A stretch of DNA of 64,000 nucleotides, taken from contig NZ_AP014583.1 in assembly GCF_000828715.1 (NCBI RefSeq), positions 3,718,001 to 3,782,000 of the forward strand. The letters are read 5' to 3'. This DNA comes from Winogradskyella sp. PG-2. GTDB lineage: Bacteria; Bacteroidota; Bacteroidia; Flavobacteriales; Flavobacteriaceae. Each line of letters begins with the position of its first letter. Position 1 is the first letter of the stretch. Below, one piece after another: positions 21,201-40,391 of this stretch. The position numbers and the translations under genes were made by a program. A model generated the notes under the pieces. That model did no database searches and had not been told where the DNA came from. It worked only from the letters and a program-made list of their open reading frames with translations.

Positions 21201-24200
21201 CTGTTAACGGTGATTTTTCTTTAGGTAACACAGGTTTTGGTACAGATTACACTTACTATGCTGATGTAGCGGGTAATAATGAGTTAGTTAATGATGATAT
21301 TGGTCCTGGAAGTCCACCAGCTTATGTTAATGGATATTCTATTACCACCGATGGAAATAATGTAAATCCAAACTTTTCTGGTCAAGATCATACTAGTGGT
21401 AGCGGAAATTTCATGGCGATCAATGGGCATGGAAGTCAATATGTATTATGGTCACAAACAATGGATGTAGAAAGTGGTGCTGAATATAATTTTGCTGCAT
21501 GGGCAAGAAGTTTAAATGCCACAGGTCCTTTTGGTCAACTACAATTTAGAATTAATGGATCTTTAGAAGGATCGCAATTAAGTTTATCAGGTTATCCTGC
21601 GACAGACTGGGGCAGATTTTTTGGAACTTGGACATCTACTATAGATGGCCCAGTTTTAGTAGAAATAGTAAATAACCAAAATTCGTCTAGTGGTAATGAT
21701 TTTGGAATTGATGACATCACATTTACTACATTATCAACATTTATTAATCTTACATCTAATATTGGTACTGATAACCAAACAGCATGTCAATATAGCCCTA
21801 TAGTTGATATAACGTATGATGTAGGTGGAGGACTTTCTGGTCCAACAATTACAGGTTTACCTGCTGGTTTAACGACATCATTTGATGGTCTTGAGTTTGC
21901 TATAACCGGAACTCCAACAGCAACAGGTACATTTAATTATACAATAGATTCTAATGCAAGTTGTGGAAGTAAAACAGCTACTGGTACAATAATTGTTAAT
22001 ACCGCACCAATAGCCACCATTACAACATCATCAGGTACAGTTTGTCAGTCTGACGGTACTATAACTTTAAATGCTACATTAAGTGGAAGTGCTACTAATG
22101 GTGCGTGGAGCATTTCTGGAACACCTATTCCAACAACTTTATTAGGTAATGTTGCATCTGGAAACTATAATATTTCTACTACTGGTTCAGTTACTTTTAC
22201 ATTTACATCAAATGACCCAACAGGTCCTTGCGAAAGTGCTTTAGAGACCGTAGATTTCAATATTATTCCATTCGTACAAGCCAATGCTAATCCTAATAAT
22301 ATCAATTACACTTTAGCAGATTGTTCGTCAACTATAGTGTCTTTAAATGCAAATAATAATACTGGCCAATGGACAGCGCTACCTAATACTGGATACTTTT
22401 CTGACGCTAGTGCGTATAATTCAGATTTTACAGGAGAAAGTGGTACAGATTATACACTAACTTGGACTACAACTAATAGTTCACCATGTGCTTCTTCATA
22501 TGACACTTTACTGATTTCTATTCCAGATTGTGGATCTAATATAGTCTTTGATGGTACAGAAGATTATATAAGCTTTAATGATAATTACAATTTTAACTCA
22601 GCTTTTACTATAGAATCATGGATAAAATATAATAATGATTCAAGCTTAAAAACAGTAATTTCAAAGAGAGATGGATTAACATTAAATACTGGGTACGACC
22701 TAACAGTTATTGGTAATAGGTTGTTTTTTAGATACAATACTAGTCAGGTATTGGCAACTGTAGATATGAGTACTAACAAATGGTATCATATTGCAATTTC
22801 ATTTGATGGATCTAACTATAACATGTACATTAATGGATTTAGTGTTTTGACATCAACGAATGGATCATTACCAACTACAAATTCCAATAAAGCATTAATT
22901 GGAGCGATGGATAGAACTAATGCCTCTCCAATAAATTATTTTGACGGTGCAATAGACGAAGTTCGTATTTGGAATACAGCATTAACGCAAAGCCAAATTA
23001 GAGTTATGATGAATCAAGAGATTGAGGCAAATGGATCTAATGTATTGGGCTCTGTACTGCAACAAAATATACATAGTGGCTTGCAATGGAATAGTCTTAT
23101 TGGATACTATCAAATGATTGATGGGAATCAATCTGTGGTTGCTAATGGTAATATTCAAGATATTTCAACAGCGTCACCAGTTGATGGTGTACTAAATAAA
23201 ATGAGTACAACACAGTCTGAAACTGCACCACTTCCATATGTTTCATTAAATAATGGCACTTGGGATTCTGCAAGTACGTGGTTAAATAGTGCAACACAAC
23301 AAATGCCAAACTCAACTGTTAATAGTATTACTGGTTTAGCACAAACATGGAATATTATAGTTGCTCAGCATAATATCTCAATAGACAGATCAACTCAAGT
23401 GTTAGGTTTATTGTTAGAAAACAATAAATTATCTGTTACCAATGATCAACCATTGATAGTAGACAATTATCTAAAGATTAATGGGGTTTTAGATCTAGTT
23501 GACCAATCTCAACTCATACAACCTACTGGAAGTGTTGTTGATTATACAGGAACTGGAAATTTAGAACGCGACCAGCAAGGAACTGCCAATTTATTTAATT
23601 ATAATTATTGGTCATCACCTGTAAGCGATAATGGCTCAACTTATACATTAGCAAGTACTCTGAATGATGGTACAACATCTTCAAACCCTCAACCACTTAA
23701 TTGGACGAGTTCTTATGATGCTAATCCTTTAACAAATCCAATAACAATAAGTCGTAGATGGTTAAACCTTTATGAAAACTATCCTGAGAATGCTTATGCT
23801 GACTGGAATGCAATTGATGAAAATGATCCTATTCAAATAGGGCTTGGATACTCAATGAAAGGTAGTGGCACTTCAAATAGCAGTCAAAATTATACATTTA
23901 TTGGTCAGCCAAATAATGGAACAATCACAACGCCTATTTCAGGTGATTATCAAGCTTTAGTCGGTAATCCATATCCTTCAGCAATAGACGCTAATACATT
24001 TATAAATGATAATAGTAGTGTTTTAGAAGATGGTACACTTTATTTCTGGGAACATTCCACTACTAATGGCTCACATTTTCTATCTGATTATCAAGGCGGT
24101 TATGCCGCACGTAATTTAACTACTGGTATCGCTGCTGTATCACCACCAGAAGTCAATGGTGAAGGTAGTGCCAATAAAGTACCAGGTCGTTATGTGCCAG

Positions 24201-25054
24201 TTGCTCAAGGCTTCTTTGTCACAGGAAACTCTACAGGCGGACAAATTACATTCAACAATAGTCAACGTATATTTATAACAGAGCAAGGGAGTAATTCACT
24301 TTTCTTAAGAGGTAATGCAAGTGATAATTCAACTCCAAACGATAACCAAGGTGATGACGAAACAACTCGACTTATTAGATTAGATTTTATAACACCAGAA
24401 AATGCAATACGACATGTAGTCATTGGATTTGTAGACAATGAAAATGCTACTGATGGTATTGATTATGGCTATGATGCCATTAACCAAGACAACTTCCCTA
24501 ATGATATGTCTTTTAATATTGAAGGTGAAAAATTTGTTATACAAGGCGTTGGTGAATTTGATGAGACTAAATCTTATCCTTTAGACATCAACTTAACAAA
24601 TGGTGGATCTATTGAAATAGCACTTAATGATTTGGAAAATTTTGATGATGCTATCGATGTTTTCATTTTCGATGCGTTAAATGATATCTACAAAAGAATC
24701 AATGATACAAGTTATCAACTTAACTTAGATTCTGGAGATTATAGTAATAGATTCTATCTTGTGTTCCAAGAAAACACTTCATTATCAACGACAGAGCAGC
24801 AAACTGAAAGTATACTTGTAAATTTCTTGCAGAATACAGACGAAATTTTTGTTAAGACACCTTCTAGTATAAATGTAAATCAATTATACCTAATAAACAT
24901 TGCTGGTCAAACTGTAGCATCATGGAACGCAACTAATTTACCAATGTCTGATACAATTAAGATCCCAGTAAAAAATGTTTCTGAAGATAGCTATATCTTA
25001 AAGGTTGAAACTAATATTAGCACAGTTAATAAGAAGCTTTTGATTAAGTATTAA
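18251..25054 (+). CDS. Giant multidomain cell-surface protein with T9SS sorting domain
   Basis: This 2267-residue protein begins with a signal peptide ending FYGQS. In order I see: a beta-rich N-terminal domain (about 25-190); two HYR-like repeats (about 190-354) with paired cysteines and VTLTVxDxxGQTxTC; Ig/PKD-like domains (about 355-445); two bacterial Ig-2-like repeats with SGGSWVSNN and STTGVITP (about 447-590); two jelly-roll-like segments (about 627-837 and 982-1164); a LamG/concanavalin-like domain (about 1431-1594, ESWIKYNN, WYHIAISFDG, DGAIDEVRIWN); and a C-terminal T9SS sorting domain (about 2181-2267, ending SYILKVETN to KKLLIKY). The protein is likely exported through the outer membrane and attached to or released from the surface, where it may bind glycans. 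It converges on the second giant gene with a 16-base gap. Confidence 0.9.
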   Translation: MKHFSTKLVIKIVTLLFVTNFYGQSDIVESYAILNINSLGNTYYDLNFETANPNFNGADLGTFSPGESLILNGAENQTYKCGTHNIMNGFIDYRIYLTTDTPGSFIPSQILFNVDDGTNNFCGGTSIDQTWESSGANIDVLNGLTSGDYFLEVYTRADADHNNDNIADNILYNSNSGLNFRASFRVDNPPVANCQAITVQLNASGNTTITASDINNNSTDDFDTSTLVLSIDNDSFDCSNIGTPVSVTLTVEDSIGQTDTCTALVTVVDNISPIAICQNVSIQLDDSGNASIVAAVIDNGSSDNCGSITLNASQTAFTCADLGTNSVTLTVDDGNGQTATCNATVTVLDPGASSSLTIVSNDIDNEICLGENLTFTATPVNGGTTQSYEWFINGLSQGSTNVPSFTPSTIPSSNYSVFARMTTDISACDPKQSNTLNIIVNALPNIKVSSNIICIDDTSQFASPSSGGSWVSNNTSVASISTTGVITPNNTGNVTFTFTDATTGCSNTTNTVSINGLPTIGSFPFDYKLCAGDIEVLTPTSGGTWISNNPSAASITNSGVITGLSGGNATFTFTNSTTGCSATSNVIEIIDLPNITSLTASDNPICSGNAIILTSNVQTSAINTKSTLVNYNFNSGSDYSQLVDISTTPNINSTFYSASGSDNIPFNTGQGSLGGGFTYNTPRGNALVQVDDWSDGGTYPGSDDSGMWQLDVDGADLVNYSNLKFSFQYRRSNKFGDVKTITVDYRVGNSGAWTTTYITVPRNNAFYTTWRDAIIVLPVSFDNAALVQFRLGVDDGSRFNVCSASDYVNGTCDDNVNGVKDIASADIYIDNVQMEGDTSSTTLEYVWSADSGTDAGLPASATVPSVTNSQITVNPEVSTEYTVTVTNSANCVSTETINVIVYPTPVVSLFADYCPTDIPSTPQDESNMIQLVASADIPISTWEWNTGETGNTIYLDTAGSYEVIGTNSDGCSDGRSIDVAQELAVNGDFSLGNTGFGTDYTYYADVAGNNELVNDDIGPGSPPAYVNGYSITTDGNNVNPNFSGQDHTSGSGNFMAINGHGSQYVLWSQTMDVESGAEYNFAAWARSLNATGPFGQLQFRINGSLEGSQLSLSGYPATDWGRFFGTWTSTIDGPVLVEIVNNQNSSSGNDFGIDDITFTTLSTFINLTSNIGTDNQTACQYSPIVDITYDVGGGLSGPTITGLPAGLTTSFDGLEFAITGTPTATGTFNYTIDSNASCGSKTATGTIIVNTAPIATITTSSGTVCQSDGTITLNATLSGSATNGAWSISGTPIPTTLLGNVASGNYNISTTGSVTFTFTSNDPTGPCESALETVDFNIIPFVQANANPNNINYTLADCSSTIVSLNANNNTGQWTALPNTGYFSDASAYNSDFTGESGTDYTLTWTTTNSSPCASSYDTLLISIPDCGSNIVFDGTEDYISFNDNYNFNSAFTIESWIKYNNDSSLKTVISKRDGLTLNTGYDLTVIGNRLFFRYNTSQVLATVDMSTNKWYHIAISFDGSNYNMYINGFSVLTSTNGSLPTTNSNKALIGAMDRTNASPINYFDGAIDEVRIWNTALTQSQIRVMMNQEIEANGSNVLGSVLQQNIHSGLQWNSLIGYYQMIDGNQSVVANGNIQDISTASPVDGVLNKMSTTQSETAPLPYVSLNNGTWDSASTWLNSATQQMPNSTVNSITGLAQTWNIIVAQHNISIDRSTQVLGLLLENNKLSVTNDQPLIVDNYLKINGVLDLVDQSQLIQPTGSVVDYTGTGNLERDQQGTANLFNYNYWSSPVSDNGSTYTLASTLNDGTTSSNPQPLNWTSSYDANPLTNPITISRRWLNLYENYPENAYADWNAIDENDPIQIGLGYSMKGSGTSNSSQNYTFIGQPNNGTITTPISGDYQALVGNPYPSAIDANTFINDNSSVLEDGTLYFWEHSTTNGSHFLSDYQGGYAARNLTTGIAAVSPPEVNGEGSANKVPGRYVPVAQGFFVTGNSTGGQITFNNSQRIFITEQGSNSLFLRGNASDNSTPNDNQGDDETTRLIRLDFITPENAIRHVVIGFVDNENATDGIDYGYDAINQDNFPNDMSFNIEGEKFVIQGVGEFDETKSYPLDINLTNGGSIEIALNDLENFDDAIDVFIFDALNDIYKRINDTSYQLNLDSGDYSNRFYLVFQENTSLSTTEQQTESILVNFLQNTDEIFVKTPSSINVNQLYLINIAGQTVASWNATNLPMSDTIKIPVKNVSEDSYILKVETNISTVNKKLLIKY

Positions 25055-25070
25055 TAGTTGCTAAACATTA

Positions 25071-28000
25071 TTAGTTTTTAATAAGTTTGGTCATTTTAAT
25101 ACCGACCGCAGAATTTATTTTAACAAAATACATTGCTGAATCTAATTGACTGATATTGATTTCTGAAAAGTTAGAATTTATTACGTTAACGCGTTGACCA
25201 TTTACAGCAAAAATTTCAATGGAATATATTAAAACATTACCTTCATTTTTGACTTTAATAATCCTTGCACTTGGATTAGGGTAAATTAATAGACCACCTA
25301 ATTGCTCATCATTAGAAATGCTATTTACTTCGGTAACTTCTATAATTGCGGAGGCTTCACCACAATCACCATTGTTGTGTGTATAAGTATAAATTCCACC
25401 ACCAAGTAATTCAGGTGACCAAACTCCACCTAAATCAGGAGTTCCTTCTAAAGCGTTAAATAACTGTTCTTCTATAACTATCGTACCTTCCTCTATTTGT
25501 AATTCACCATCTTCACCTGGAGATAATGCTTCATTAACTTCAACAGTTACAGTTGCTGACTCTAAAGGGTAACAAGACGATGGTTCATGACTGTAAACAT
25601 AAACACCAATTGCTGTTTCTTCCCAAGTCCCTCCAGTATCTACTACACCTCCTAGAGCTGCAAATAATTCATCTTCTGTTGGTGTCTCATCAGAACATAA
25701 TAAGATACTTCCGTCTTCTCCTGCTGATTTTTGTTCTTCTGGTATTAAAGTAACAAATGCAGACACAAAAGCATTACAGGATGTAGCGATGTGCCTATAC
25801 TCATAAACTCCCGGAGATGCTAATATCCATATACCTCCATAATCTGGGTTACCACCAAGTGCATTGAATAATTCTGTGAATGAAGGGTTTGTATTAGGAC
25901 AAATTTCTAATTCACCATCTTCACCTGCTGATTTTGGCAATTCCTCAGTTATTGTAACTGTAGCCGATACAAATGGACTACATGGTGTTGCTGCATGACT
26001 GTATTCATAAACTCCTGTGGATACTTCTAACCATGTTCCTCCTGTATCTGCATCTCCGGATAAAGCCGTAAACAATTCTGCTTCTGTTGGTGTCTCCCCT
26101 TCACATATCTCTAACTCAGCATTATTCCCTGCTGATTTTGCCGTTTCTTCTATTAATGTAACTGTAGCTGATACAAATGGACTGCATAATGTTGCTGCAT
26201 GACTGTATTCATAAACTCCTGTGGATACTTCTAACCATGTACCTCCTGTGTCTGCATCTCCGGATAAAGCCGTAAACAACTCTGCTTCTGTTGGTGTCTC
26301 CCCTTCACATATCTCTAACTCAGCATTATTCCCTGCTGATTTTGCCGTTTCTTCTATTAATGTAACTGTAGCTGATACAAATGGACTACATGGTGTTGCT
26401 GCATGACTGTATTCATAAACTCCTGTGGATACTTCTAACCATGTTCCTCCTGTATCTGCATCTCCGGATAAAGCCGTAAACAATTCTGCTTCTGTTGGTG
26501 TCTCCCCTTCACATATCTCTAACTCAGCATTATTCCCTGCTGATTTTGCCGTTTCTTCTATTAATGTAACTGTAGCTGATACAAATGGACTGCATAATGT
26601 TGCTGCATGACTGTATTCATAAACTCCTGTGGATACTTCTAACCATGTACCTCCTGTATCTGCATCTCCGGATAAAGCCGTAAACAATTCTGCTTCTGTT
26701 GGTGTCTCCCCTTCACATATCTCTAACTCAGCATTATTCCCTGCTGATTTTGCCGTTTCTTCTATTAATGTAATTGTAGCCGATACAAATGGACTGCATA
26801 ATGTTGCTGCATGACTGTATTCATAAACTCCTGTGGATACTTCTAACCATGTACCTCCTGTGTCTGCATCTCCAGATAAAGCCGTAAACAACTCTGCTTC
26901 TGTTGGTGTCTCCCCTTCACATATCTCTAACTCAGCATTATTCCCTGCTGATTTTGCCGTTTCTTCTATTAATGTAACTGTAGCCGATACAAATGGACTA
27001 CATGGTGTTGCTGCATGACTGTATTCATAAACTCCTGTGGATACTTCTAACCATGTTCCTCCTGTATCTGCATCTCCGGATAAAGCCGTAAACAATTCTG
27101 CTTCTGTTGGTGTCTCCCCTTCACATATCTCTAACTCAGCATTATTCCCTGCTGATTTTGCCGTTTCTTCTATTAATGTAATTGTAGCCGATACAAATGG
27201 ACTGCATAATGTTGCTGCATGACTGTATTCATAAACTCCTGTGGATACTTCTAACCATGTACCTCCTGTATCTGCATCTCCGGATAAAGCCGTAAACAAT
27301 TCTGCTTCTGTTGGTGTCTCCCCTTCACATATCTCTAACTCTGCATTATTCCCAGCTGATAATTCCGCTTCTTCAACTAAAGTAACATAGACAGGCACAC
27401 CTGCACAATCTTGTAAAAACTTCTTTGCGTTAAATTGATATACTCCAGGCTCTGTTATTTCAGTTAATGGCTCTAAATCTGGATTTGCTTCTAAGTCATC
27501 CGTTTCATTGTACCATGAATTTTCTGGTTCGAAGACATTACCGAATAGTTCAGCTTCGTTGTATACAGTATTATCAACGTCTACTTGTATTTCTAATTCA
27601 CTATACAATGCTGATAAATCTACATTATTGAAATCACAAACTTCAACAGTAATATTTGGCCCAGGGTCAAAAGGTATGGTAACCTCATTTACAGTAAAAG
27701 ATGCTATAGATTCTATTTCCAAATTGACTGAACCCCCTATATTTAAGATTGTTGTTACTTCAACATCAAAATTATAAGTAAACTGACCTGCACCCGATTC
27801 TGGAAAACGTACTTCAGTACCTATTGAAGTTGCTCCAGGATATCCATCAGTTTGATTTATAACTATGGTCGATGATTCAAACTTACCACTATTATAATCA
27901 TCACTTGATAATAAATTGAGATCATATGATGTCGTTTCACACAACACCCCTCCATTACCTATACTTAGACCTGCTGATGGAAATCCAAAAAATGTGAGTA

Positions 28001-31000
28001 AAGCTGTACTTTGTAATTCATCATCAGTTGAATCAGACGCTGTGAATTGTATTGTACACACTAAATTTGTGTCATCAGGATTAATATCTGTGGTTAAAAC
28101 AGAATCTAATACTTCCCACTCCCATGTTATATCTCCACAACTAGAAGCAGTAGCTCCACCATTATTAAGAATCCAAGTGTTCACCTGAGTTTCATAAGTT
28201 AACGGATCATATATAATTGTTAAATCTTCACTCGGGTTTATTAAAGATAAATCCAATGTTTCTGACACAATTATACTAGCTTCAATAGCACCACATTGAG
28301 GTAAAAACTGACCAGCGTTAAAGATATATTCACCTGGTCCATTATAAGTAGTAATTGGATTCCCATTAGAATCAAACCAATAATCATCTGTGTTAAATTC
28401 TGAATCGTTAGTACCATCAATAATATCAAATTGGGCGTATAAATCACCAAGGGTAATATCATCATTAGAACATACTGTCATTTCTTTATCTTCTCCAGGA
28501 TTAAATGGAACTGTATACCAATGCCAAACATCTGCTTCATCCGTTAAGGTTATCGGATTAGGCATACCAAAATATTGAACTTGTTTAGAAACATTTATAG
28601 TATAATGATATGTAAATTGGCCAGCACCAGATTCAGGAAAACGTACTTCTGTATCTTCAATTGAAGTAACAGCATCTCCTGTACCCTCTGCCAAGTCTTG
28701 CTGATAAATAATTAATGCATTTTCATAAACATTACTACCAAAATCAATTTGTTCATCAAATTCGTTCCTATTAAAAATACTAAGATCAAAAGTGCCTGAT
28801 TCATCAGCACACAATGCTCCGTCTGCTTCTATTCCACCAGCTACATCCTCATTAACAGGAACAAAGTCTACTCCTGCAGTAAAATCAGAGGTATATAAAA
28901 TAAATTGTCCTGAGGTGGATTGATTACCTAAAACTGAAGATGCAGTAAATGTTGTTTCATAAATTATATTATTGAACGCATTTACTGAGATACTAAAATT
29001 ATAATTCCATGTAATATTTTCTTGATAAAAATAAACTTGAGCATTTCCGTTGTTATCTAACCAACTTTCAACTTCCATATTCACATTGGCGTCAAAAGCA
29101 TCTATACCGCTATTTATAGGTGGTGCTATACATAGAACATCCGTGTAAACTGAATTTGTAATTTGCCATGAGGCATTGTTTTCAGCATACTCCACATCAT
29201 CAACAAGCAAACAGGCATTATTAAATCCTGGATTTATATTAAGATTTGTGATTTCAGTATTAAAACCATTCTGCAAGTTTACTGCTCGAATGTTTGATGC
29301 ACTTATATTAACATCTGTTAGCTGAGATTGGTTTGAAAAATCGAGGTTTGTAAGTCCGTCTAAATTTGAAATATTTACACCTTCTAGTTCACTTAAGTTT
29401 AAAAAATTAAGGCTTGTAATATTATTTAAAAATGATAAGTTTAAAATTCTAAGCTCATTTAAATTAGAAATATCAAGAACTGAAAATTGATTAAACTCTA
29501 TAAGCTCTAATTCTTCCAATTGGCTTAAATTAGAAAGGTCAAGGTTTGATACTCCATACAACTGTCTAAAATACAGGCTTTTAAGCTGGTTAAGATTAGA
29601 CAAATCAATCATTTGCAAGCCATACAATGTATTTAAGGATAACGTATGAAGATTGATATTTTGACTCAAATCCAGGCTTGATAAATTACTAGTAGCTGTA
29701 TCTATTATTAACTCTTCAAGTAGTGTATTGTTACTTAATATTAATTCATTAAAACCAGATGAAGCTGGTGCACCGACATAAGCATCAATTTCGATTACAC
29801 GTAAATTAAAGTTATTATTAAAATCAACAGATAAGTTGAGTGCGTAACCATTAGTATATCTAAATACTTCTAAATTCACAAAGCTTTGAATACCTTCAAA
29901 ATTAGATATTGAATACCCATTAATATTAAGAGTTTCAACACTTGATATTCCACAAACCTCAATTTGACCATTTAGATTCTGATCCAAATCAATATTTAAA
30001 TCTATTAAAGCTTGTTCAAACTGTTGGTCAGGAATAAGGATTGTTTCAGCTGTACTAGAAACAAGAGTTACATAAATAGGCTCGCCTGCGCAGTCTTCCA
30101 AAAAGTTCTTAGCATTAAATTGATAAACTCCTGGTTCAGTAATTTCGTTCAGTGACGATGGATTGGAGCCATCTTCTAAATTATCATTTTGGTTATACCA
30201 GAAACTTGCTGGATTAAAACCACTTAAATCTGCATTATTAAAACTTGTATTATTAATAGCTTCTGAGTCAATTTCTAATTGATCATACAACCACAAAAGA
30301 TCTAAATTATTAAAATCGCAAACCTGCACTGTAGTAACAGGATCAATAGGGTCAAAGGCTACTGTAACATCATTAGCGGTATAAAAAGTTGATGTTTCAT
30401 AAGTTTTTTCTTCGCTTCCTATATTAAAAGAAGTACTAACCTTAAACTCAAAAAAGTAAGTAAACTGACCAGCACCAGATTCAGGAAACCTGATATCAGT
30501 ACCTTCTAATTCAAGTCCAGACAAACCACTTATTTCATCAATACTAAAAGTAGAAGAACTAAATTTACTATCATTATACTCAGCACCTCCATTTGGTTCT
30601 GTATACAGAGAGTCATCAAATTTACTAACATCATAAAAATTATCACATATAACACCTCCATTACCATTACTCTCACCTGCAGTAGCAAAATTATTAAATA
30701 TTATATCAGCGACTATAGTTATGGATTCTCCTATTTCATCTGTTGCTGTAAACTCAACAGAAACGGCAAGACGATCTAAAACACCATCAAAATCTGAATC
30801 ACCTAAAAAATCATCAATTACATTATAAGTCCATATTACTTCACCAATGCAACTATTAACCTCTGCTCCTCCATTAATGTCTAGCCATTCATTTACTTCA
30901 GTTTGATTTCCATTACCATCATAATCAACAATTAAATCATTAGGATTTTCAGTTATTCTTGGATTCAAATTAGCAACATAAACACCAGAAGGTTCAAACC

Positions 31001-32189
31001 AATTAGATTGGGACTGTGCTGCAGACGTATTCCAAACAGCTACACAATTTAAATTAGAGTTATTCCTGACATCAAGAAAGCTTATTGGTGAGAATAGGCC
31101 CTCTTGATTTCTTAGATCTATAAATTGTAAAAATGGATTGTTTGTTACGGTAACATTCTCAAGATTAATATTATTTGTTAAATCCAAAGATTGAATTGCC
31201 GTAAACCTAAGTGTTAAATCATCGAGGTATACATTTTGATCAAATGAAATTTGGTTAAGGTTTTCAGCAGCAAGGATATTGACAGTTTCCAAATACATAT
31301 TTCCATAAAAATCCAATGGCTGTATGATAGCTGCATTGTTATTAATTAATTCAAAGTTTTGAAGGCATTTAAAGAATTGTAACCCTTCAAAATTCATAAT
31401 ATTGTAATCCAATATATCTAACTGAGAATTAAAATAAATATCATTAAGATTAACCAATGAATTCAATATCCCATCAGAATCTATGTTACTATCTATTAAA
31501 GCCTGTTCAAACTGTTCATCTGGTATAGAAACAGCCTCATTACCTATATCTATTATACTAAAGTCATCAAATGCAATTCCTGGGTTTTCACCGCTTAAAT
31601 TTGATGAAAAAGCAATTCTAAAAAAGACACTACTTTCCCCTGATAAATTTTGAATTGACTGAATAGTTGTAAACCAATAGGATCCAAAACCAGATTCATA
31701 TGGATTCCCAGACCAACCAACTTCTTGCCCACCTGGAAGACTTGAAACTGAATCATCATTATAACCATTAAGACCTGTCTCTAAAGCACCAATATTTTGC
31801 CAGGTGAGACCATTATCAATAGAAGATTGAAGAACTGCACCATCACATACACCATTAAAACAATAAGTTTGCCAAATTAAACTGAAATTTACAACTGGAT
31901 TTATAAGTGACGATAAATCGAATTCAGGACTTACCAAAGCTGAATTTTCATCAGAATTATAAAAACCCGTTAAATTGGTCACCCAAGCGTTTAAACCTGA
32001 AGCTGCTGAGTTAAAAGATCCAAATGAAGGTGTTCCAAGTTGCCATGAACTATTGACACCTTCTGAAGTCCATCCCCCAGCACCTGTTTCAAAATCTTCA
32101 ATATAAGGATATGAGGTTATCTGCGCATTTAAGCCATAAGAAATAGTTAAAGCTATTAATAGAAATTTTATGTTTAATACTTTTTTCAT
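25071..32189 (-). CDS. Giant repeat-rich T9SS surface protein downstream of TPR-CHAT gene
   Basis: I start this 2372-residue protein at the ATG at 32189 because MKKVLNIKFLLIALTISYGLNAQ is a clean signal peptide; the GTG 36 bases upstream adds a non-signal head and lies inside the CHAT gene. In order: a MAM/jelly-roll-like domain (about 24-205); a leucine-rich segment starting IPDEQFEQALIDSNID (about 215-400); three related modules with RFPESGAGQFTY (about 570, 1187 and 1464); a second, longer leucine-rich segment (about 717-980); a 10-unit repeat region of about 68 residues each (about 1611-2285, seven nearly identical); and a type A T9SS sorting domain (about 2297-2372, LLIYPNPS). Its ATG is eight bases after the TPR-CHAT stop codon, so it is very likely in that operon. 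Confidence 0.9.
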   Translation of the reverse strand: MKKVLNIKFLLIALTISYGLNAQITSYPYIEDFETGAGGWTSEGVNSSWQLGTPSFGSFNSAASGLNAWVTNLTGFYNSDENSALVSPEFDLSSLINPVVNFSLIWQTYCFNGVCDGAVLQSSIDNGLTWQNIGALETGLNGYNDDSVSSLPGGQEVGWSGNPYESGFGSYWFTTIQSIQNLSGESSVFFRIAFSSNLSGENPGIAFDDFSIIDIGNEAVSIPDEQFEQALIDSNIDSDGILNSLVNLNDIYFNSQLDILDYNIMNFEGLQFFKCLQNFELINNNAAIIQPLDFYGNMYLETVNILAAENLNQISFDQNVYLDDLTLRFTAIQSLDLTNNINLENVTVTNNPFLQFIDLRNQEGLFSPISFLDVRNNSNLNCVAVWNTSAAQSQSNWFEPSGVYVANLNPRITENPNDLIVDYDGNGNQTEVNEWLDINGGAEVNSCIGEVIWTYNVIDDFLGDSDFDGVLDRLAVSVEFTATDEIGESITIVADIIFNNFATAGESNGNGGVICDNFYDVSKFDDSLYTEPNGGAEYNDSKFSSSTFSIDEISGLSGLELEGTDIRFPESGAGQFTYFFEFKVSTSFNIGSEEKTYETSTFYTANDVTVAFDPIDPVTTVQVCDFNNLDLLWLYDQLEIDSEAINNTSFNNADLSGFNPASFWYNQNDNLEDGSNPSSLNEITEPGVYQFNAKNFLEDCAGEPIYVTLVSSTAETILIPDQQFEQALIDLNIDLDQNLNGQIEVCGISSVETLNINGYSISNFEGIQSFVNLEVFRYTNGYALNLSVDFNNNFNLRVIEIDAYVGAPASSGFNELILSNNTLLEELIIDTATSNLSSLDLSQNINLHTLSLNTLYGLQMIDLSNLNQLKSLYFRQLYGVSNLDLSNLSQLEELELIEFNQFSVLDISNLNELRILNLSFLNNITSLNFLNLSELEGVNISNLDGLTNLDFSNQSQLTDVNISASNIRAVNLQNGFNTEITNLNINPGFNNACLLVDDVEYAENNASWQITNSVYTDVLCIAPPINSGIDAFDANVNMEVESWLDNNGNAQVYFYQENITWNYNFSISVNAFNNIIYETTFTASSVLGNQSTSGQFILYTSDFTAGVDFVPVNEDVAGGIEADGALCADESGTFDLSIFNRNEFDEQIDFGSNVYENALIIYQQDLAEGTGDAVTSIEDTEVRFPESGAGQFTYHYTINVSKQVQYFGMPNPITLTDEADVWHWYTVPFNPGEDKEMTVCSNDDITLGDLYAQFDIIDGTNDSEFNTDDYWFDSNGNPITTYNGPGEYIFNAGQFLPQCGAIEASIIVSETLDLSLINPSEDLTIIYDPLTYETQVNTWILNNGGATASSCGDITWEWEVLDSVLTTDINPDDTNLVCTIQFTASDSTDDELQSTALLTFFGFPSAGLSIGNGGVLCETTSYDLNLLSSDDYNSGKFESSTIVINQTDGYPGATSIGTEVRFPESGAGQFTYNFDVEVTTILNIGGSVNLEIESIASFTVNEVTIPFDPGPNITVEVCDFNNVDLSALYSELEIQVDVDNTVYNEAELFGNVFEPENSWYNETDDLEANPDLEPLTEITEPGVYQFNAKKFLQDCAGVPVYVTLVEEAELSAGNNAELEICEGETPTEAELFTALSGDADTGGTWLEVSTGVYEYSHAATLCSPFVSATITLIEETAKSAGNNAELEICEGETPTEAELFTALSGDADTGGTWLEVSTGVYEYSHAATPCSPFVSATVTLIEETAKSAGNNAELEICEGETPTEAELFTALSGDADTGGTWLEVSTGVYEYSHAATLCSPFVSATITLIEETAKSAGNNAELEICEGETPTEAELFTALSGDADTGGTWLEVSTGVYEYSHAATLCSPFVSATVTLIEETAKSAGNNAELEICEGETPTEAELFTALSGDADTGGTWLEVSTGVYEYSHAATPCSPFVSATVTLIEETAKSAGNNAELEICEGETPTEAELFTALSGDADTGGTWLEVSTGVYEYSHAATLCSPFVSATVTLIEETAKSAGNNAELEICEGETPTEAELFTALSGDADTGGTWLEVSTGVYEYSHAATPCSPFVSATVTITEELPKSAGEDGELEICPNTNPSFTELFNALGGNPDYGGIWILASPGVYEYRHIATSCNAFVSAFVTLIPEEQKSAGEDGSILLCSDETPTEDELFAALGGVVDTGGTWEETAIGVYVYSHEPSSCYPLESATVTVEVNEALSPGEDGELQIEEGTIVIEEQLFNALEGTPDLGGVWSPELLGGGIYTYTHNNGDCGEASAIIEVTEVNSISNDEQLGGLLIYPNPSARIIKVKNEGNVLIYSIEIFAVNGQRVNVINSNFSEINISQLDSAMYFVKINSAVGIKMTKLIKN
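25932..27359 (-). repeat. Tandem array of seven near-identical 204-bp coding repeats
   Basis: Seven units of exactly 204 bp (68 residues, starting SAGNNAELEICEGETPTE and ending near IEETAK) follow each other without gaps. On the plus strand the landmark GTGGATACTTCT recurs at 26017, 26221, 26425, 26629, 26833, 27037 and 27241. Each unit has two cysteines (EIC and the CSPFVSAT segment) that could pair in an Ig-like fold. Three more divergent units (SAGEDGELEIC, SAGEDGSILLC, SPGEDGELQI) follow down to about 25325. Unit variants occur in the order C-A-B-C-A-B-A. Confidence 0.95.
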
Positions 32190-32197
32190 ATTAAAAT

Positions 32198-32815
32198 TTA
32201 CTCTAATAGTACAAACGCGGCCCATTTAAAGGGGTCATCTTTATACTTTCTAGACAAGTTGCGTTGTGTCTCTATAAATGCTGCTCTAATAGTGTTATTT
32301 TTAGTCCAGTTTTTATAAAGTGTTTCCATAAAAATGGCCGTTTCTTTGTCTGGTACCTGCCACAAACTCATAATAAGTGTATCTACCCCAGCCATTTTAA
32401 ACGCACGTTGCAAACCATATACTCCTTCACTCCCATTAATATCACCTAAACCAGTTTCACAAGCACTTAGAACAACAATACTGGTATTTGATAAATCTAA
32501 ATTGGCTATTTCCATAGCTGTTAAAATACCATCTTCATTATCACTATAAAAATTATTGTTTCCCCATGCCTGATTCGCTCCAGAGAGAATTAAACCAGAT
32601 CTTAATAATGGGTCTTTTGAGGACCTATAAATATTTGAAACCTCATCATCAATACTAGTTTTTGACTTTTCAGAATTCTCAAAAAAGAAACCATGAGTAG
32701 CAATATGAATAAGATTCGGGCTTTGACCGCTTAAATTCTTGAATTGTTTTTCTGATGCATTATCAGACTCCCATACAGAAACTACTTTACCCTTTTTTTG
32801 ATAAAATGTTTTCAA
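32198..32815 (-). CDS. CHAT protease domain, C-terminal part of frameshifted TPR-CHAT protein
   Basis: This frame (205 codons from an internal ATG at 32815) encodes the catalytic half of a CHAT (caspase-HetF-associated-with-TPR) protease, with the expected His41 in HIATHGFFF and Cys119 in VVLSACETG, then GLQRAFKMAGVDTLIMSLWQVPD and a C-terminal WAAFVLLE. CHAT proteases are caspase-like cysteine peptidases. The first 9 codons overlap the upstream frame and the real protein almost surely begins in the TPR gene. The internal ATG has no promoter or signal of its own that I can see. The catalytic pair is intact, so the domain would be active if the frame is restored. Confidence 0.85.
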   Translation of the reverse strand: MKTFYQKKGKVVSVWESDNASEKQFKNLSGQSPNLIHIATHGFFFENSEKSKTSIDDEVSNIYRSSKDPLLRSGLILSGANQAWGNNNFYSDNEDGILTAMEIANLDLSNTSIVVLSACETGLGDINGSEGVYGLQRAFKMAGVDTLIMSLWQVPDKETAIFMETLYKNWTKNNTIRAAFIETQRNLSRKYKDDPFKWAAFVLLE

Positions 32816-35495
32816 TAGACATAACTTCCTTTAAGGTTCCAGGAAGTTCATTCCACTTTGAAGCCCTCGACTCAGCTTCGTTAGACTTAATATCATAATT
32901 TACACCACCTATAAGAAGAATATTACCATTATCCTTTTTATTTATTTCGTTAATTAAATTATGAGTGCTACCCATTTGATACAAATCGTATTGATAAGAA
33001 AGTATTGGTTTATCTTTAGTCCCAAGAGCAGACATTGGTATTTGATTTAGTATACCACTTAGCGCAAAATACACTTTCTTTTTTGGGCTTAGGTTTTTTA
33101 AATAGGCCTCAATAGGAAGCCATATCAGATTGTATAAACCCTTTGTTGATTTCATAGATTTTCCCTTGGATCCTCTAACGGCATATAATGAATTTGGAGA
33201 GCCTTTATCTAATAATGCTATAAGTTCTTTCTCTCTAAATAATGGAATAACTGCTGGTTGAAGTTCATCTTTAGTATATAAATAAGCGATATAGTTCGTT
33301 TCGCCAGTTGACTTGTTGTTTTTGTAGGTGCCAAAATGAGCAAACTCAATGGCTACTTCATCTTGTTTTAACTGCTTCCTTACATCTTCCCAATTTCGTG
33401 TAAGAGAAATTCCTCCTTCAAAATTTGTAGAATAATATTTTACTAGTTCGGCTTCCCTCTGATTAACTACACTTTTTAAACTATCAATTTCTTTTTCGTT
33501 TGTAGTTCTATACTGTGTTAACAATTTTGACAATCTTTTTTTATCATTTTTATAGAGTTCAATTTTGAATGTTAAACTATCATTCTCAATCTTACTAAGC
33601 TTTGTTAAAATATCCTTAGAATTATTCAATAGCAAGCCTTTTAACATTAATTGATTATTCAAATTTGCAATATCTAAGCTCGAATCTTTAAATGTATCAC
33701 TTTGCGATAAAGATTGCATTTGATTGAACGTATTAGTTATCATCTTCATAAAAGCCGCCTTTTCTTGCTCACTGCTAAACTGAAAAATCTTGTTGATTTG
33801 ATTTACAAATACACTATTAGATTCTAATAATGATGAAATACCTTCATCTTTCATACCCAAGCCAAAGTAAGTGTTACTAAGTGTTTTTAGAAAATCACCA
33901 TAATCCACATGGTCTGTCCCTAATATGTCACCAAGATTAGAAGTAGATTCTTTAATTAAAGGTAAAGCGCTTTTAAAATCCCCTGTTAAATTATATGCAT
34001 TTGCTAAGCTATATTTTCTATTATAGAATTCTTCATTTTTAGGCTTACCCTTATTAATAAAGTAATTCAAATTCTTTTCCATAAGTCTAATCGCCTGCTC
34101 GTTATCACCTAATTCAAGCAAAGTTTTGGCATAATCGTTAAGCATATAGCTGTAATCGTTGTGCCATTCTTCTCCTTCTGGTTTTTCATTTATCTCTAAA
34201 GCATTTTTAAAATACTCTAAAGCTTCATCAAACCTATTTTCTTCAAAATAAAGTTTACCTCTATTATTTAAGAGCTTCGCATACTTTTCGCTATCCACTC
34301 CATGAGAGATTTTCATGGATTCAATTGACTCATTATAGAATTGATTCGCTAAATTATATTGTCCCATATTTTGATAACAATACCCTTTATCCATAAGCCT
34401 TAAACTTATGGTTCTCTTGGATATTTCAGTAACCTCTAACGCTTGGTTACAATAATAAATCGCTTTTTCATAGTTGCCAATACGGTCATAGATTAGTCCA
34501 ATCACTCCAAGTAACTGGGCATAAGAATCAGTATTGTTGTCATTTTGACTAATCATAGTTTTTTGCACCTTCTTAAAAGCGTCTATTGCCTTTAAATAGT
34601 TATTATTATCTCTTTCTATTAGTCCTAAAACATAACTAGCGTATATATAACCACTACTATTTGAATCTTCAAGATTTTCAAATATTTGCAATGCCCTATT
34701 TTCATATGCTGCTGCCTTTTCTAAAAATCCTGCTCTCCAAAAAACGACTCCAAATTCATTAAGTGAATTTGTGTAAGATTCACTTGTACTTCCTTCTTTT
34801 TTTTCTACGATATTTAGAGCCTCTTCTGCGACTATTTGCGCATTTAATGTATCCCCTAGGTTTATATAAACGAGCAATAGACTCTTTAAAATACCTTCTT
34901 CTTTTAATGTATTCATAGGAATTGAATGCACTAGATTTAGAGCTTGTTCAAGATGTTGCTTTGCTTTTAAGTTATTTTGCTTTGTGCCTTTATAAATCTT
35001 GCCTAATCCATACAGGGTTTTAGCATAATCACCTGTATTGGAAAGATCATTTTTACTTAAAACAGATTTACGCTCCTCATAGAGCTTTATAGCATCTTTG
35101 TATTGTCTATACTTAGACAAAGAATCCGCAAATTGCTCTAGTCTAGAAGAATAGTCTAAAAGTTTAGCCTTATTAAGACCATCCGAGCTTTTTAATAACA
35201 TATCTGTTAACTCTAAAGAATCAATAAGGGCAAACTTCTTAAGAGCAATGTTTGCACTATAATACTCTAGTAATGCTTGCCGAAGTTTTTTCTTAGAATT
35301 TATACTATCTCTTGCGATAGTATATGCTGTATTTAAGTATGGTAAGGCTTCTTTGTAGGAACTATCTTTTACCAGAACCATTCCTTTAGAATAATTATCC
35401 TTCAACTGCAAGTAGTTCTTAGAACCATTACAGGAAGAAAAACAGACACCTATTAACAAAAAGGCGAAACAAAATCGAAAAAAAGCAGTCAACAT
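32787..35495 (-). CDS. TPR lipoprotein, N-terminal part of frameshifted TPR-CHAT protease
   Basis: This 902-codon frame starts with a lipoprotein signal (FAFLLIGVCFSSC, lipobox FSSC). About 12 TPR-type helical pairs cover residues 30-560 (GDYAKTLYGLGKIYKGTKQ, GNYEKAIYYCNQALEV, NRFDEALEYFKNALEINE), followed by a coiled linker and the first half of a CHAT fold (VAIEFAHFGTYK, YNLIWLPIEAYL, LSGILNQIPMSAL, NILLIGGVNYD). The frame ends at ILSKKG-stop. Removing one A from an A7 tract joins it in frame with the CHAT half, giving about 1098 residues. The lipobox suggests a membrane-anchored protease outside the cytoplasm, unlike most CHAT proteins. It is first in an operon with the giant repeat protein. 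Confidence 0.85.
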   Translation of the reverse strand: MLTAFFRFCFAFLLIGVCFSSCNGSKNYLQLKDNYSKGMVLVKDSSYKEALPYLNTAYTIARDSINSKKKLRQALLEYYSANIALKKFALIDSLELTDMLLKSSDGLNKAKLLDYSSRLEQFADSLSKYRQYKDAIKLYEERKSVLSKNDLSNTGDYAKTLYGLGKIYKGTKQNNLKAKQHLEQALNLVHSIPMNTLKEEGILKSLLLVYINLGDTLNAQIVAEEALNIVEKKEGSTSESYTNSLNEFGVVFWRAGFLEKAAAYENRALQIFENLEDSNSSGYIYASYVLGLIERDNNNYLKAIDAFKKVQKTMISQNDNNTDSYAQLLGVIGLIYDRIGNYEKAIYYCNQALEVTEISKRTISLRLMDKGYCYQNMGQYNLANQFYNESIESMKISHGVDSEKYAKLLNNRGKLYFEENRFDEALEYFKNALEINEKPEGEEWHNDYSYMLNDYAKTLLELGDNEQAIRLMEKNLNYFINKGKPKNEEFYNRKYSLANAYNLTGDFKSALPLIKESTSNLGDILGTDHVDYGDFLKTLSNTYFGLGMKDEGISSLLESNSVFVNQINKIFQFSSEQEKAAFMKMITNTFNQMQSLSQSDTFKDSSLDIANLNNQLMLKGLLLNNSKDILTKLSKIENDSLTFKIELYKNDKKRLSKLLTQYRTTNEKEIDSLKSVVNQREAELVKYYSTNFEGGISLTRNWEDVRKQLKQDEVAIEFAHFGTYKNNKSTGETNYIAYLYTKDELQPAVIPLFREKELIALLDKGSPNSLYAVRGSKGKSMKSTKGLYNLIWLPIEAYLKNLSPKKKVYFALSGILNQIPMSALGTKDKPILSYQYDLYQMGSTHNLINEINKKDNGNILLIGGVNYDIKSNEAESRASKWNELPGTLKEVMSIENILSKKG
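32793..32799 (-). repeat. A7 homopolymer at the TPR-CHAT frameshift
   Basis: On the minus strand the sequence reads TTATC, seven A, then GGGTAA. With seven A the upstream frame runs Ser-Lys-Lys-Gly-stop; with six A it continues Ser-Lys-Lys-Gly-Lys-Val-Val into the catalytic half. It is therefore the exact point where the frame changes and a credible site of slippage. Confidence 0.9.
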
Positions 35496-35695: not shown

Positions 35696-36217
35696 TTAAT
35701 TTAAACTATTCCTAGTTTCTTTATCTGCTAATTTTAATTGCTTGTTGTAGGCATCAATTCTGTTATGTGCTGTACCATCTATCAACAAAATAACGACCAT
35801 CATAGCAATTGTAGTGATTGCAGATGCTCGCCAAGTTGGCTTATTAACAAAAATAATTAACAACGCCGCTACTATAATAATATCTGGTATGGCTTTAAAA
35901 ACTATAGTTCTATATTAGTTTAAAGCTTTTTCGATACCTACAAATTCTGAAGCCACAAAAGCTGATGAATCCTCATTATAAGCTGTTTCAAATTGTTTGA
36001 TTCAAGATTTATTGGTGTAAAATAATCCAAGTCCTATGGTCATAAGTAATAGACCAGCTATTAAGGTAGGAATGATGTAAGCTCTTGCCGTTTCTGTTTT
36101 TCCCAGCTGCCAAAAGCCTATGCTTGCAATTAAAAATAAAATCGCAAATAAGATGAAGAATCTGGTAGAAAAAACTTCAGCTTTGGTCCATTCAGTAGCT
36201 AATTTTAATATATCCAT
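35696..36217 (-). pseudogene. Membrane protein gene with two in-frame stop codons
   Basis: An ATG at 36217 opens 71 codons (two hydrophobic segments: FFILFAILFLIASIGFWQL and AYIIPTLIAGLLLMTIGLGLF) to a TGA at 36002. The same frame continues without any insertion or deletion through IKQFETAYNEDSSAFVASEFVGIEKALN, a TAA at 35915, and then YRTIVFKAIPDIIIVAALLI and WRASAITTIAMMVVILLIDGT to RNSLN and a normal stop at 35696. The full protein would have about 173 residues and four membrane segments. Both stops look like point changes in a coding frame (TGA perhaps from CGA; TAA from CAA or GAA). The 71-residue head could still be made. The family is not recognised with certainty. Confidence 0.8.
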
Positions 36218-37201: not shown

Positions 37202-37588
37202 TTAAATAAACTTATCTAAATCCATCTCATTAATACCACCATGAGAGGCGTGCGCCACCACTACTCCATTCCGCAATACCAGTAATTGCGGAGATTGGTG
37301 CATTACTTGGAATTTATAACCGGTTTCATTTGAAACTTCTCTATAACTTAATAAATCTAAATAATATAAATCTGCGTTTGCATCTAGGTTGTAAGACGAT
37401 ACAAATTGGTTCATTACCATTCGGCTAATACCACAGCGTGTAGAATGCTTAAAAATAAGCTGTGTTTTAGTTTTAGATTTATCTTCAATAGCATGTAATT
37501 GTTCTATACTATTTAAAGCAATCCAAGGCAATACTTTTTCTTCTTTAGGTTCTGATGAACCACCAAACATTTTATTAAAAATCCCCAT
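37202..37588 (-). CDS. ytxJ: YtxJ, bacillithiol system redox protein
   Basis: This 128-residue protein has a thioredoxin fold with a single cysteine motif KHSTRCGISRMVMNQF (Cys52), a YYLDLLSYREVSN strand-turn and a cis-Pro loop (HQSPQLLVLRNGVVV). This is the YtxJ (DUF2847) family, linked to bacillithiol-dependent redox chemistry; Bacteroidota make bacillithiol. It likely acts in the cytoplasm to reduce mixed disulfides, though that role rests on family knowledge. The cis-proline strand and length of about 110-130 residues are typical. It lies alone between clpB (divergent) and the acetolactate-decarboxylase-like gene. Confidence 0.88.
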   Translation of the reverse strand: MGIFNKMFGGSSEPKEEKVLPWIALNSIEQLHAIEDKSKTKTQLIFKHSTRCGISRMVMNQFVSSYNLDANADLYYLDLLSYREVSNETGYKFQVMHQSPQLLVLRNGVVVAHASHGGINEMDLDKFI

Positions 37589-37784: not shown

Positions 37785-40391
37785 ATGAATTTTAATAATT
37801 ATACCATTAAATCACAAGAAGCCTTACAGCAAGCACAGCAGCTTGCGCAAGGTTTTGGTCATCAGCATATAGAAAATGACCATATTTTTAAAGCCCTTTT
37901 TGAGGTTGATGAAAACGTTTTACCATTCCTGCTAAAGAAGATGAATGTTAATGTATCAATATTTCAACAAATATTAGATAAGGAACTAGAAAGTTTTCCA
38001 AAAGTTTCTGGTGGAGATATTATGATTTCTCGCAATGCTAGTAAAGCTTTAAACGAGGCTTCTATCATTGCCAAAAAGATGAATGACGACTTTGTATCTA
38101 TAGAGCATTTGGTATTAGCCATTTTTAAATCTAAAAGCAAGATTGCACAGATTCTAAAAGATCAAGGTGTTACAGAAAAGGTACTAAGCGCGAGTATAGA
38201 TGAGTTACGCAAAGGAGATCGTGTCACCTCACAAAGTCAAGAGGAAACCTATAACGCACTTAGTAAGTATGCTAAAAACTTAAATCAGTTAGCTAGCGAT
38301 GGCAAATTAGATCCTGTTATTGGAAGAGATGAAGAGATTCGTAGAATACTTCAAATTTTATCACGTCGTACTAAAAACAATCCAATTTTAGTTGGTGAAC
38401 CAGGAACTGGTAAAACGGCTATTGCAGAGGGTTTAGCACACAGAATTATAGATGGTGATATTCCAGAAAATCTAAAAGACAAACAAATATTTGCTTTAGA
38501 TATGGGTTCACTTATTGCTGGTGCAAAATTTAAAGGCGAGTTTGAAGAGCGCTTAAAAGCCGTTATAAAGGAAGTAACAACTAGTGATGGAGATATAGTT
38601 CTCTTTATTGATGAGATTCACACTTTAGTTGGTGCAGGTGGTGGACAAGGTGCCATGGATGCTGCTAATATTTTAAAGCCAGCTTTAGCACGTGGTGAAT
38701 TAAGAGCCATTGGTGCAACTACATTAGATGAATATCAAAAATATTTTGAGCAAGATAAAGCCTTAGAACGGCGTTTTCAGAAAGTTATAGTGAACGAACC
38801 AGATACTGAGAGCGCTATTTCTATTCTTAGAGGTATTAAGGAGAAATACGAAACGCATCACAAGGTTAGAATTAAAGACGAAGCCATTATTGGTGCTGTA
38901 GAATTATCTGAGCGCTACATTACAAACCGATTCCTACCAGATAAAGCTATTGACTTAATGGATGAGGCTGCGTCTAAATTACGTATGGAAATTAACTCTA
39001 AGCCAGAAGAATTAGATGTTCTCGATCGTAAAATAATGCAATTAGAAATTGAACATGAAGCCATTAAGCGCGAAAAAGATGAAACCAAATTAAAAAGTTT
39101 AAAAGTTGATTTAGCAAATCTTAAAGAAGAACGCAATGAGATTAATGCCAAATGGAAATCTGAAAAAGAGGTTGTAGAAAACGTACAAACTATTAAACAA
39201 GATATTGAAAACTATAAACTAGAAGCGGAACGTGCAGAGCGTGAAGGCGATTATGGTAAAGTAGCAGAAATACGATACGGTAAAATTAAAGAGGCCACAG
39301 AATCATTGGAAGCCTTTCAAAAACAATTAACAGAACAACAAGAAACGGCCTTAATTAAAGAGGAAGTGACTTACGAGGATATTGCAGATGTTGTTGCCAA
39401 ATGGACCGGAATTCCAGTAACCAAAATGATTCAAAGCGAACGTGAAAAGCTTCTTAAATTAGAAGATGAGTTGCATAAACGTGTTGTAGGGCAAGAAGAA
39501 GCCATAGAAGCTGTTAGTGATGCTGTAAGACGCTCTAGAGCAGGCTTACAAAATCCGCAAAAGCCAATAGGAACCTTTTTGTTCTTGGGTACAACTGGTG
39601 TTGGTAAAACAGAATTAGCTAAGGCCTTAGCCGAATATCTGTTTGATGATGAAAATGCGATGACACGTATTGATATGAGTGAATATCAAGAACGACATGC
39701 TGTAAGCCGATTAGTTGGAGCACCTCCTGGTTACGTGGGCTATGATGAAGGTGGTCAATTAACAGAAGCTGTAAGACGTAAACCATATTCAGTGGTGTTA
39801 TTAGATGAAATTGAAAAAGCGCATCCAGATACTTTCAATATTTTATTACAAGTGTTAGATGAAGGGCGATTAACAGATAACAAAGGTCGTATTGCTGACT
39901 TTAAGAACACTATTATCATTATGACCTCAAATATGGGAAGTCATATTATACAAGAACGTTTTGAAGCTACAAAAGATATTGCTTCAGCCATTGAATCGGC
40001 TAAAGTGGATGTTTTAGGCTTATTGAAACAAAGTGTAAGACCAGAGTTCTTAAATCGAATTGATGATACCATACTCCTTACACCTTTATCTAAAGAAAAC
40101 ATTGTAGATATTGTTGGCTTACAACTAAATAGTGTTACTAAGATGATTGCTAAGCAAGGAATTACTTTTGACGCGACACCAGAAGCCATTAGTTATTTGG
40201 CAGAGAAAGGTTATAATCCAGAATACGGAGCTAGACCTGTAAAACGTGTTATACAAAAAGAGGTATTAAATCAATTAAGTAAAGAGATTCTAGCAGGATC
40301 TGTAACTACTGATAGCGTTATTCTTTTAGATGAGTTTGATGATAAACTCGTTTTTAGAAATCAGGGAGATTTAGTTGTTGAAGAATTCTAA
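37785..40391 (+). CDS. clpB: ATP-dependent chaperone ClpB
   Basis: This 868-residue Hsp100 disaggregase has the N-terminal Clp_N repeats (about 1-145), NBD1 with Walker [10 protein letters not shown] (about 205) and Walker [10 protein letters not shown], the coiled-coil middle domain (about 400-525, [17 protein letters not shown]), and NBD2 with Walker [10 protein letters not shown] (about 602) and [11 protein letters not shown]. The middle domain separates it from ClpA/ClpC. It works with DnaK to rescue aggregated proteins in heat stress. Upstream is a long AT-rich leader with no obvious CIRCE element. A hairpin follows the gene. Confidence 0.98.

Follow-up and report, generated by a model that had tools for sequence, protein, structure and literature searches.

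Organization of the locus

The window analyzed here is a 64,000-nucleotide stretch of Winogradskyella sp. PG-2 (contig NZ_AP014583.1, positions 3,718,001–3,782,000). Its region 25071–35495, which an earlier note had read as one CHAT gene followed by one giant gene, consists of three frames rather than two genes, all on the minus strand:

32787–35495, minus strand: CHAT-gene frame 1, 902 aa, with an export leader and lipobox-like Cys, TPRs and CHAT profile 5–119
32198–32815, minus strand: CHAT-gene frame 2, 205 aa from a TTG, with CHAT profile 124–286 and the motifs HIATHG and SACETG
32787–32815, minus strand: 29-base overlap of frames 1 and 2, with an A7G3 run at the break
25071–32189, minus strand: T9SS cargo, the partner, 2372 aa when read from the second ATG (2384 aa with the ATG at 32225 as start)

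The upstream 902-aa frame breaks off within the CHAT domain, which continues for 205 residues in the other frame, so that the peptidase domain is interrupted in this genome. PF12770 scored 30.9 bits in frame 1 and 152.7 bits in frame 2 (cut-off 24), and the 902-aa frame aligned to the CHAT of the relative G040 with 48% identity over 882 columns. Because HIATHG and SACETG, which carry the catalytic His and Cys, are both in the second frame only, leader and active site fall in separate reading frames in the sequence as given. In an alignment of the 205-aa frame with ten other CHATs, these motifs were invariant or nearly so across the 11 sequences, with SACKTG in three, and they were retained in all aligned members of the window's CHAT clade. 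As the gene is split, the unit may be inactive or altered in this genome, and the CHAT protein of the window is a putative protease. Scanning for promoter motifs gave no complete motif immediately before the CHAT gene.

With its last base at 32198, the CHAT-coding frame is followed downstream, after a gap of eight bases, by the partner, which starts at 32189. Open reading frame, gap and profile scores thus agree with the earlier description of a 2372-residue T9SS protein on the same strand, eight bases from the CHAT frame. The partner is modular:

31545–32189, minus strand: N-terminal part (residues 1–215), leader and a domain common to many other secreted proteins
30075–30947, minus strand: ~290-aa module, copy 1
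28284–29081, minus strand: ~290-aa module, copy 2, diverged
27390–28250, minus strand: ~290-aa module, copy 3
25924–27386, minus strand: tandem array, 204-bp unit, 7.2 copies, 95% matches
25080–25286, minus strand: T9SS type A sorting domain (residues 2302–2370; PF18962, TIGR04183)

The sorting domain scored 40.4 bits against PF18962 (cut-off 27) and 41.2 against TIGR04183 (cut-off 23) and, together with the N-terminal leader (judged by eye), qualifies the partner as T9SS type A cargo; the whole genome holds 69 PF18962 matches, 65 of them over the cut-off. The N-terminal domain is MAM-like by similarity to a region of the G116 partner that gave a sub-threshold InhA-like_MAM match, and LRR matches in the partner were weak and below the cut-off. 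The tandem array encodes nine 68-aa repeats (residues 1611–2222), whose structure model (pLDDT 78, pTM 0.51) had internalin K as its best PDB match (E 4.9e-5). As the TM score of that match was 0.37, an Ig-like fold for the repeats is a fair guess on the model and nothing firmer. The model of the ~290-aa module was unusable (pLDDT 40), and a PDB profile search with the domain before the CTD was not informative (best E 0.01). The N-terminal domain is found, as are the repeats, in many secreted proteins distant from any such CHAT. Seven near-identical 204-bp repeats within 25924–27386 point to recent expansion. A second giant secreted protein (18251–25054, plus strand, 2267 aa), with a laminin-G-like domain and a T9SS match below the cut-off, is encoded convergently to the partner, 16 bases away.

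Age and cause of the frame break

The CHAT genes of the relatives are unbroken single frames. When proteins of seven loci from four relatives (G002, G015, G040 and G059) were aligned to the window, nine further window genes (37.2–50.9 kb) aligned without a frame change; the CHAT gene was split. The A7G3 run at the break is a likely site for a sequencing error or an indel. Of 76 otherwise-invariant columns in the catalytic half, 3 were altered in the window, versus 0–4 of 73–77 for 14 other sequences. Raw identities at first hinted at a faster-evolving catalytic half, which relative-rate tests do not bear out: only 2 of 12 comparisons reached p < 0.05, uncorrected, and six contrasts of the N- versus C-terminal halves gave p = 0.056 to 1. 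An old pseudogene is therefore unsupported. Since the catalytic half has no clear decay, the break appears, as far as the sequence tells, to be of very recent date, to reflect an assembly error, or to be bridged. The overlapping TTG could conceivably serve for re-initiation, and recoding or re-initiation private to Winogradskyella sp. PG-2 may serve as such a bridge. Frameshifting conserved in relatives was ruled out, as their genes are single frames and the three of them whose codons were inspected (L033, L110 and L113) have no like run with a shift.

Just upstream of the split gene lies a membrane-protein-like frame of 174 codons (35696–36217, minus strand), likely a pseudogene. It carries two in-frame stops, so gene decay may be real beside the CHAT locus.

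A clade of probably exported CHAT proteins

The nine CHATs nearest to that of the window (window, G002, G015, G040, G059, G067, G116, G137 and Winogradskyella ouciana) form one clade at full length (100/100) in a tree of 38 CHATs, with the 902-aa frame standing in for the window. Seven of the nine were included in a first tree of 33 CHATs, which recovered the clade at 100/99; G116 was absent from it owing to a motif filter, and five of its distant rows are absent from the second tree. The clade was not resolved in a tree on the last 245 residues alone, or in an early tree with the window's 205-aa frame. Between subclades, the TPR halves share 25–36% identity.

A search of 68 genus genomes with the unbroken G040 CHAT matched best in G015, G059, the window's own genome (G000) and G002, followed by G067. 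For 397 family genomes, a full-length search in which two candidates were scored in each genome yielded G000, G116 and G137, and a search with the catalytic half at E ≤ 1e-40 found nine of the 397 family genomes and 2 of 296 order genomes. The W. ouciana CHAT was taken from named records. One further sequence, a 243-aa piece at a contig end in G129, is 62% identical to the window's catalytic half and stands outside the nine placed members. Its best BLAST matches were CHATs of the caspase-fold cassette described below (65%), with clade members next (61–63%), and its one readable side holds no T9SS gene.

On the side away from the partner, synteny is common to four of the nine loci:

37202–37588, minus strand: 128-aa gene with syntenic counterparts next to the CHAT gene of G002, G015 and G040 (67–79% identity)
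37785–40391, plus strand: gene that we take to be ClpB-like, syntenic in G002, G015 and G040 (92–93% identity)

The window CHAT had been proposed to be an envelope lipoprotein. Its first frame opens with a hydrophobic leader ending in CFSSC, followed by TPRs, and by eye all nine clade members have export leaders, which supports an envelope location. For lipidation, the picture is mixed. A lipobox-like Cys was seen by eye in at most four of the nine (window, G002, G067 and W. ouciana); the leader-end Cys is near the consensus in G002 and W. ouciana, and the window's lipobox, with Phe at −3, is atypical against what we take the consensus to be. G015, G040, G059, G116 and G137 have no leader-end Cys by eye. 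Export thus appears to be the common trait of the clade, with lipidation an optional one.

Partners across the nine loci

All nine clade CHATs adjoin related modular surface proteins, in three gene arrangements. The partner is downstream of the CHAT in seven loci and upstream in two, and in six of the nine (the first six entries below) the directly adjacent gene is a co-directional T9SS-CTD gene no more than 250 bp away:

Window: 2372-aa giant with CTD, 8 bp from the CHAT
G040: 1232-aa CTD protein, 59 bp from the CHAT
G002: 976-aa CTD protein, 31 bp from the CHAT
G137: 462-aa CTD protein, 159 bp from the CHAT
G067: 680-aa CTD protein, upstream of the CHAT, 12 bp
W. ouciana: 702-aa CTD protein, upstream of the CHAT, 18 bp
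G116: 1229-aa giant lacking a CTD, 202 bp from the CHAT, followed by a 302-aa CTD protein
G059: S74-chaperone protein, then a 1426-aa giant without CTD, then a 262-aa CTD protein
G015: S74-like protein (judged on visible similarity), followed by a giant truncated at the contig end

No single domain is common to all nine partners, which are instead connected by overlapping shared blocks. The N-terminal domain block occurs in the window, G040, G002, G116, G067 and W. ouciana; LRR-like stretches and/or ~290-aa modules in the window, G040, G059, G015 and G116; and a ~190-aa domain before the CTD in G116, G137, G067 and W. ouciana. The ~290-aa module was found in 4 of 68 genus genomes, all with a clade CHAT adjoining, and G002 has the CHAT without the module. 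Among the 397 family genomes, the module was seen only in G000 and as two weak matches in one other genus.

Three of the loci offer observations of their own. The giants without CTD in G116 and G059 (L109:10900–12508 and L040:10901–12447) carry a dockerin-like GDxNGDG at their end, and a small CTD protein comes next. A dockerin/cohesin link joining such divided partners as a possible anchoring pair is no more than a lead; the GDxNGDG ends gave E 0.89 against Pfam Dockerin_1. In G067, a single TAG separates partner and CHAT within one frame (L113:731–6019), and the genome search gave this CHAT instead an open frame of 1765 aa without stops.

Linkage against background

Linkage was defined as an adjacent, co-directional T9SS-CTD gene within 250 bp, and the control consisted of 20 arbitrary 15–20-kb regions from 16 sampled family genomes. 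Six of 331 non-CHAT genes in the control were linked by this definition, compared to none of 40 CHATs in the family sample (49 matches minus seven of G000 and two clade members); four of these 40 CHAT regions have a convergent or second-neighbor T9SS gene instead. In named records (78 loci), 108 CHATs were at least 600 aa long and 5 of these were linked, three of them from this clade, which leaves 2 of 105 CHATs outside the clade, alongside 21 of 816 other genes. The T9SS profile was built from eight proteins and iterated; as six of the eight are clade partners, it may favor such CTDs, in test and control alike.

Given the control frequency and the absence of linkage among family-sample CHATs, the pairing rule is specific to this clade and not a property of CHATs at large. 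The earlier note had asked whether such pairs co-occur among relatives: all eight relatives that group with the window CHAT have an adjoining partner, so the genes are far from unlinked. The nine linked loci share one origin and are not nine independent events. A general pairing of exported CHATs with T9SS genes was ruled out (0/40 in the family sample, 5/108 phylum-wide).

Some CHATs elsewhere also neighbor T9SS genes. G024 presents a separate case (L047:2220–12026), in which the gene for an M36 peptidase/DUF285 T9SS protein of 2211 aa comes 72 bp after that for a different, TM-ended CHAT. Non-clade CHATs stand beside a T9SS-CTD gene in L229 (Bacteroidota), L233 (Saprospiraceae) and L195 (an Ignavibacteriales MAG, with 367 bp between the two genes).

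A cassette of caspase-fold genes

In the trees, the T9SS-linked clade is nested among CHATs that belong to a cassette of caspase-fold proteins, most of them exported. In the window's own genome, this cassette lies at about 416–434 kb (L029) and comprises seven caspase-fold genes, four C14 and three CHAT:

In order: C14 (659 aa), C14 (582 aa), CHAT (430 aa), CHAT (599 aa), CHAT (1067 aa), C14-TPR (995 aa)
On the other strand: 1396-aa protein with a C-terminal C14 domain

A crude test detected a leader in six of the seven; the 599-aa CHAT is without one and has an in-frame stop upstream. The only CHASE2 gene of the genome (434.9–435.6 kb, L266) adjoins the cassette. Similar genes accompany several of the pairs: G116 and G137 have a C14 gene directly upstream of the T9SS-linked CHAT, in G067 and W. 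ouciana the pair shares a stretch with CHASE2, C14 and additional CHAT genes, and G040 and G059 likewise carry a CHASE2 gene close to the pair. In the window, G002 and G015, where the pair is beside clpB, the neighborhood examined contained neither a C14 nor a CHASE2 gene. Defense-system models gave no CHAT-specific match, only generic TPR and caspase models. Because the clade is nested in cassette CHATs and C14 and CHASE2 genes occur near the pair, it looks like a cassette branch that acquired a surface protein, and judged by these relationships it is most likely a periplasmic protease–partner pair derived from the cassette.

Interpretation of the pairing

We tentatively favor a conserved two-part envelope unit, in which an exported TPR-CHAT peptidase acts on or with its T9SS partner, and hold this reading with some reserve. 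It builds on leaders read by eye, domain content, linkage kept through rearrangements in one clade and nesting among cassette CHATs. In such a unit, the TPR-CHAT cysteine peptidase would be exported to face the periplasm, and the large, modular, adhesin-like partner would cross the periplasm to be displayed or released via the type IX system. The TPR half would bind the partner, and the CHAT half would make a regulated cut in the partner or in a partner-bound protein; the cut might mature, release or signal from the surface protein during or after export. Co-transcription, binding, cleavage and the partner as substrate are what we infer here, proteolysis from the conserved linkage and because CHAT substrates are often encoded near the protease, according to the accessible text of PMC9729208.

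The pair could alternatively serve a caspase-type response network (self/non-self, predator or regulated lysis) as its surface arm, with the T9SS protein as sensor and the CHAT relaying to exported caspase-fold proteins, the partner being no substrate. The nesting among cassette CHATs, the C14 genes upstream of the CHAT in G116 and G137, the shared stretches in G067 and W. ouciana, and a cassette that adjoins the only CHASE2 gene of G000 all point that way. However, the pair has no C14 or CHASE2 gene in the neighborhood examined in the window, G002 and G015, no CHAT-specific defense model matched and any effector would be hypothetical; we regard this network as possible but rather unlikely. 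About as doubtful is a wider proposal, a periplasmic caspase cascade in Winogradskyella and its kin, made up of exported C14s, a CHASE2 sensor, several CHATs and an ankyrin protein that has a trypsin-like match, in which one CHAT branch would be wired to a T9SS surface protein as extracellular input or output.

Two further accounts do without proteolysis or without joint function, and both seem improbable. The exported TPR protein could act as a chaperone or holder for large T9SS cargo, with the CHAT domain dispensable, which would suit the window, where leader and TPR half share a frame and the catalytic half is out of frame. Against this, the His and Cys motifs are retained in relatives and even in the window's second frame, and the catalytic half has no clear loss of constraint. 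The genes might also stay adjacent by inheritance only, given the single origin of the linkage and the clpB-side synteny of four of the nine loci. Yet the partner is kept between subclades with 25–36% TPR-half identity, and despite flipped order, an inserted S74 gene and a divided giant, while outer neighbors changed.

Relation to known systems and implications

Bacterial CHAT and caspase-like peptidases are best known as cytoplasmic immunity or cell-death enzymes. PorU, the T9SS sortase, belongs to clan CD and is likewise a caspase-fold-related cysteine peptidase acting on T9SS cargo; it is, however, of the gingipain kind and serves cargo in general, whereas the TPR-CHAT described here is tied to one partner set. 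In bacterial gasdermin systems, as we understand them, a caspase-like protease and its target are also encoded side by side, but there the protease is cytoplasmic and the target a small pore-former rather than a large exported modular protein. Craspase, the TPR-CHAT (Csx29)/Csx30 system of type III-E CRISPR, similarly combines TPR and CHAT with a candidate substrate encoded nearby (accessible text of PMC9729208). Csx29 is cytoplasmic and switched by the CRISPR RNP, in contrast to the window CHAT with its export leader and T9SS cargo neighbor. Among the neighboring genes scanned with Pfam, no CRISPR effector gene was seen. Multi-metacaspase operons of Bacteroidetes likewise hold several caspase homologs each, some with a possible signal peptide, but at most three metacaspases per operon, and CHAT does not occur in the accessible text of that survey (PMC3501461). 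A CHAT–T9SS pair is not described in the available portions of PMC3501461, PMC9729208, PMC8195603 and PMC7440613. Within the open-license PMC literature, no paper mentioned 'CHAT domain' together with either 'type IX secretion' or 'CHASE2'.

If the favored reading is true, an exported CHAT clade beside T9SS cargo would put regulated caspase-type proteolysis at the bacterial surface. The pairing in this clade names a candidate substrate, with intact examples in W. pelagia DF17, W. ouciana ZXX205 and Flaviramulus multivorans M-M16.
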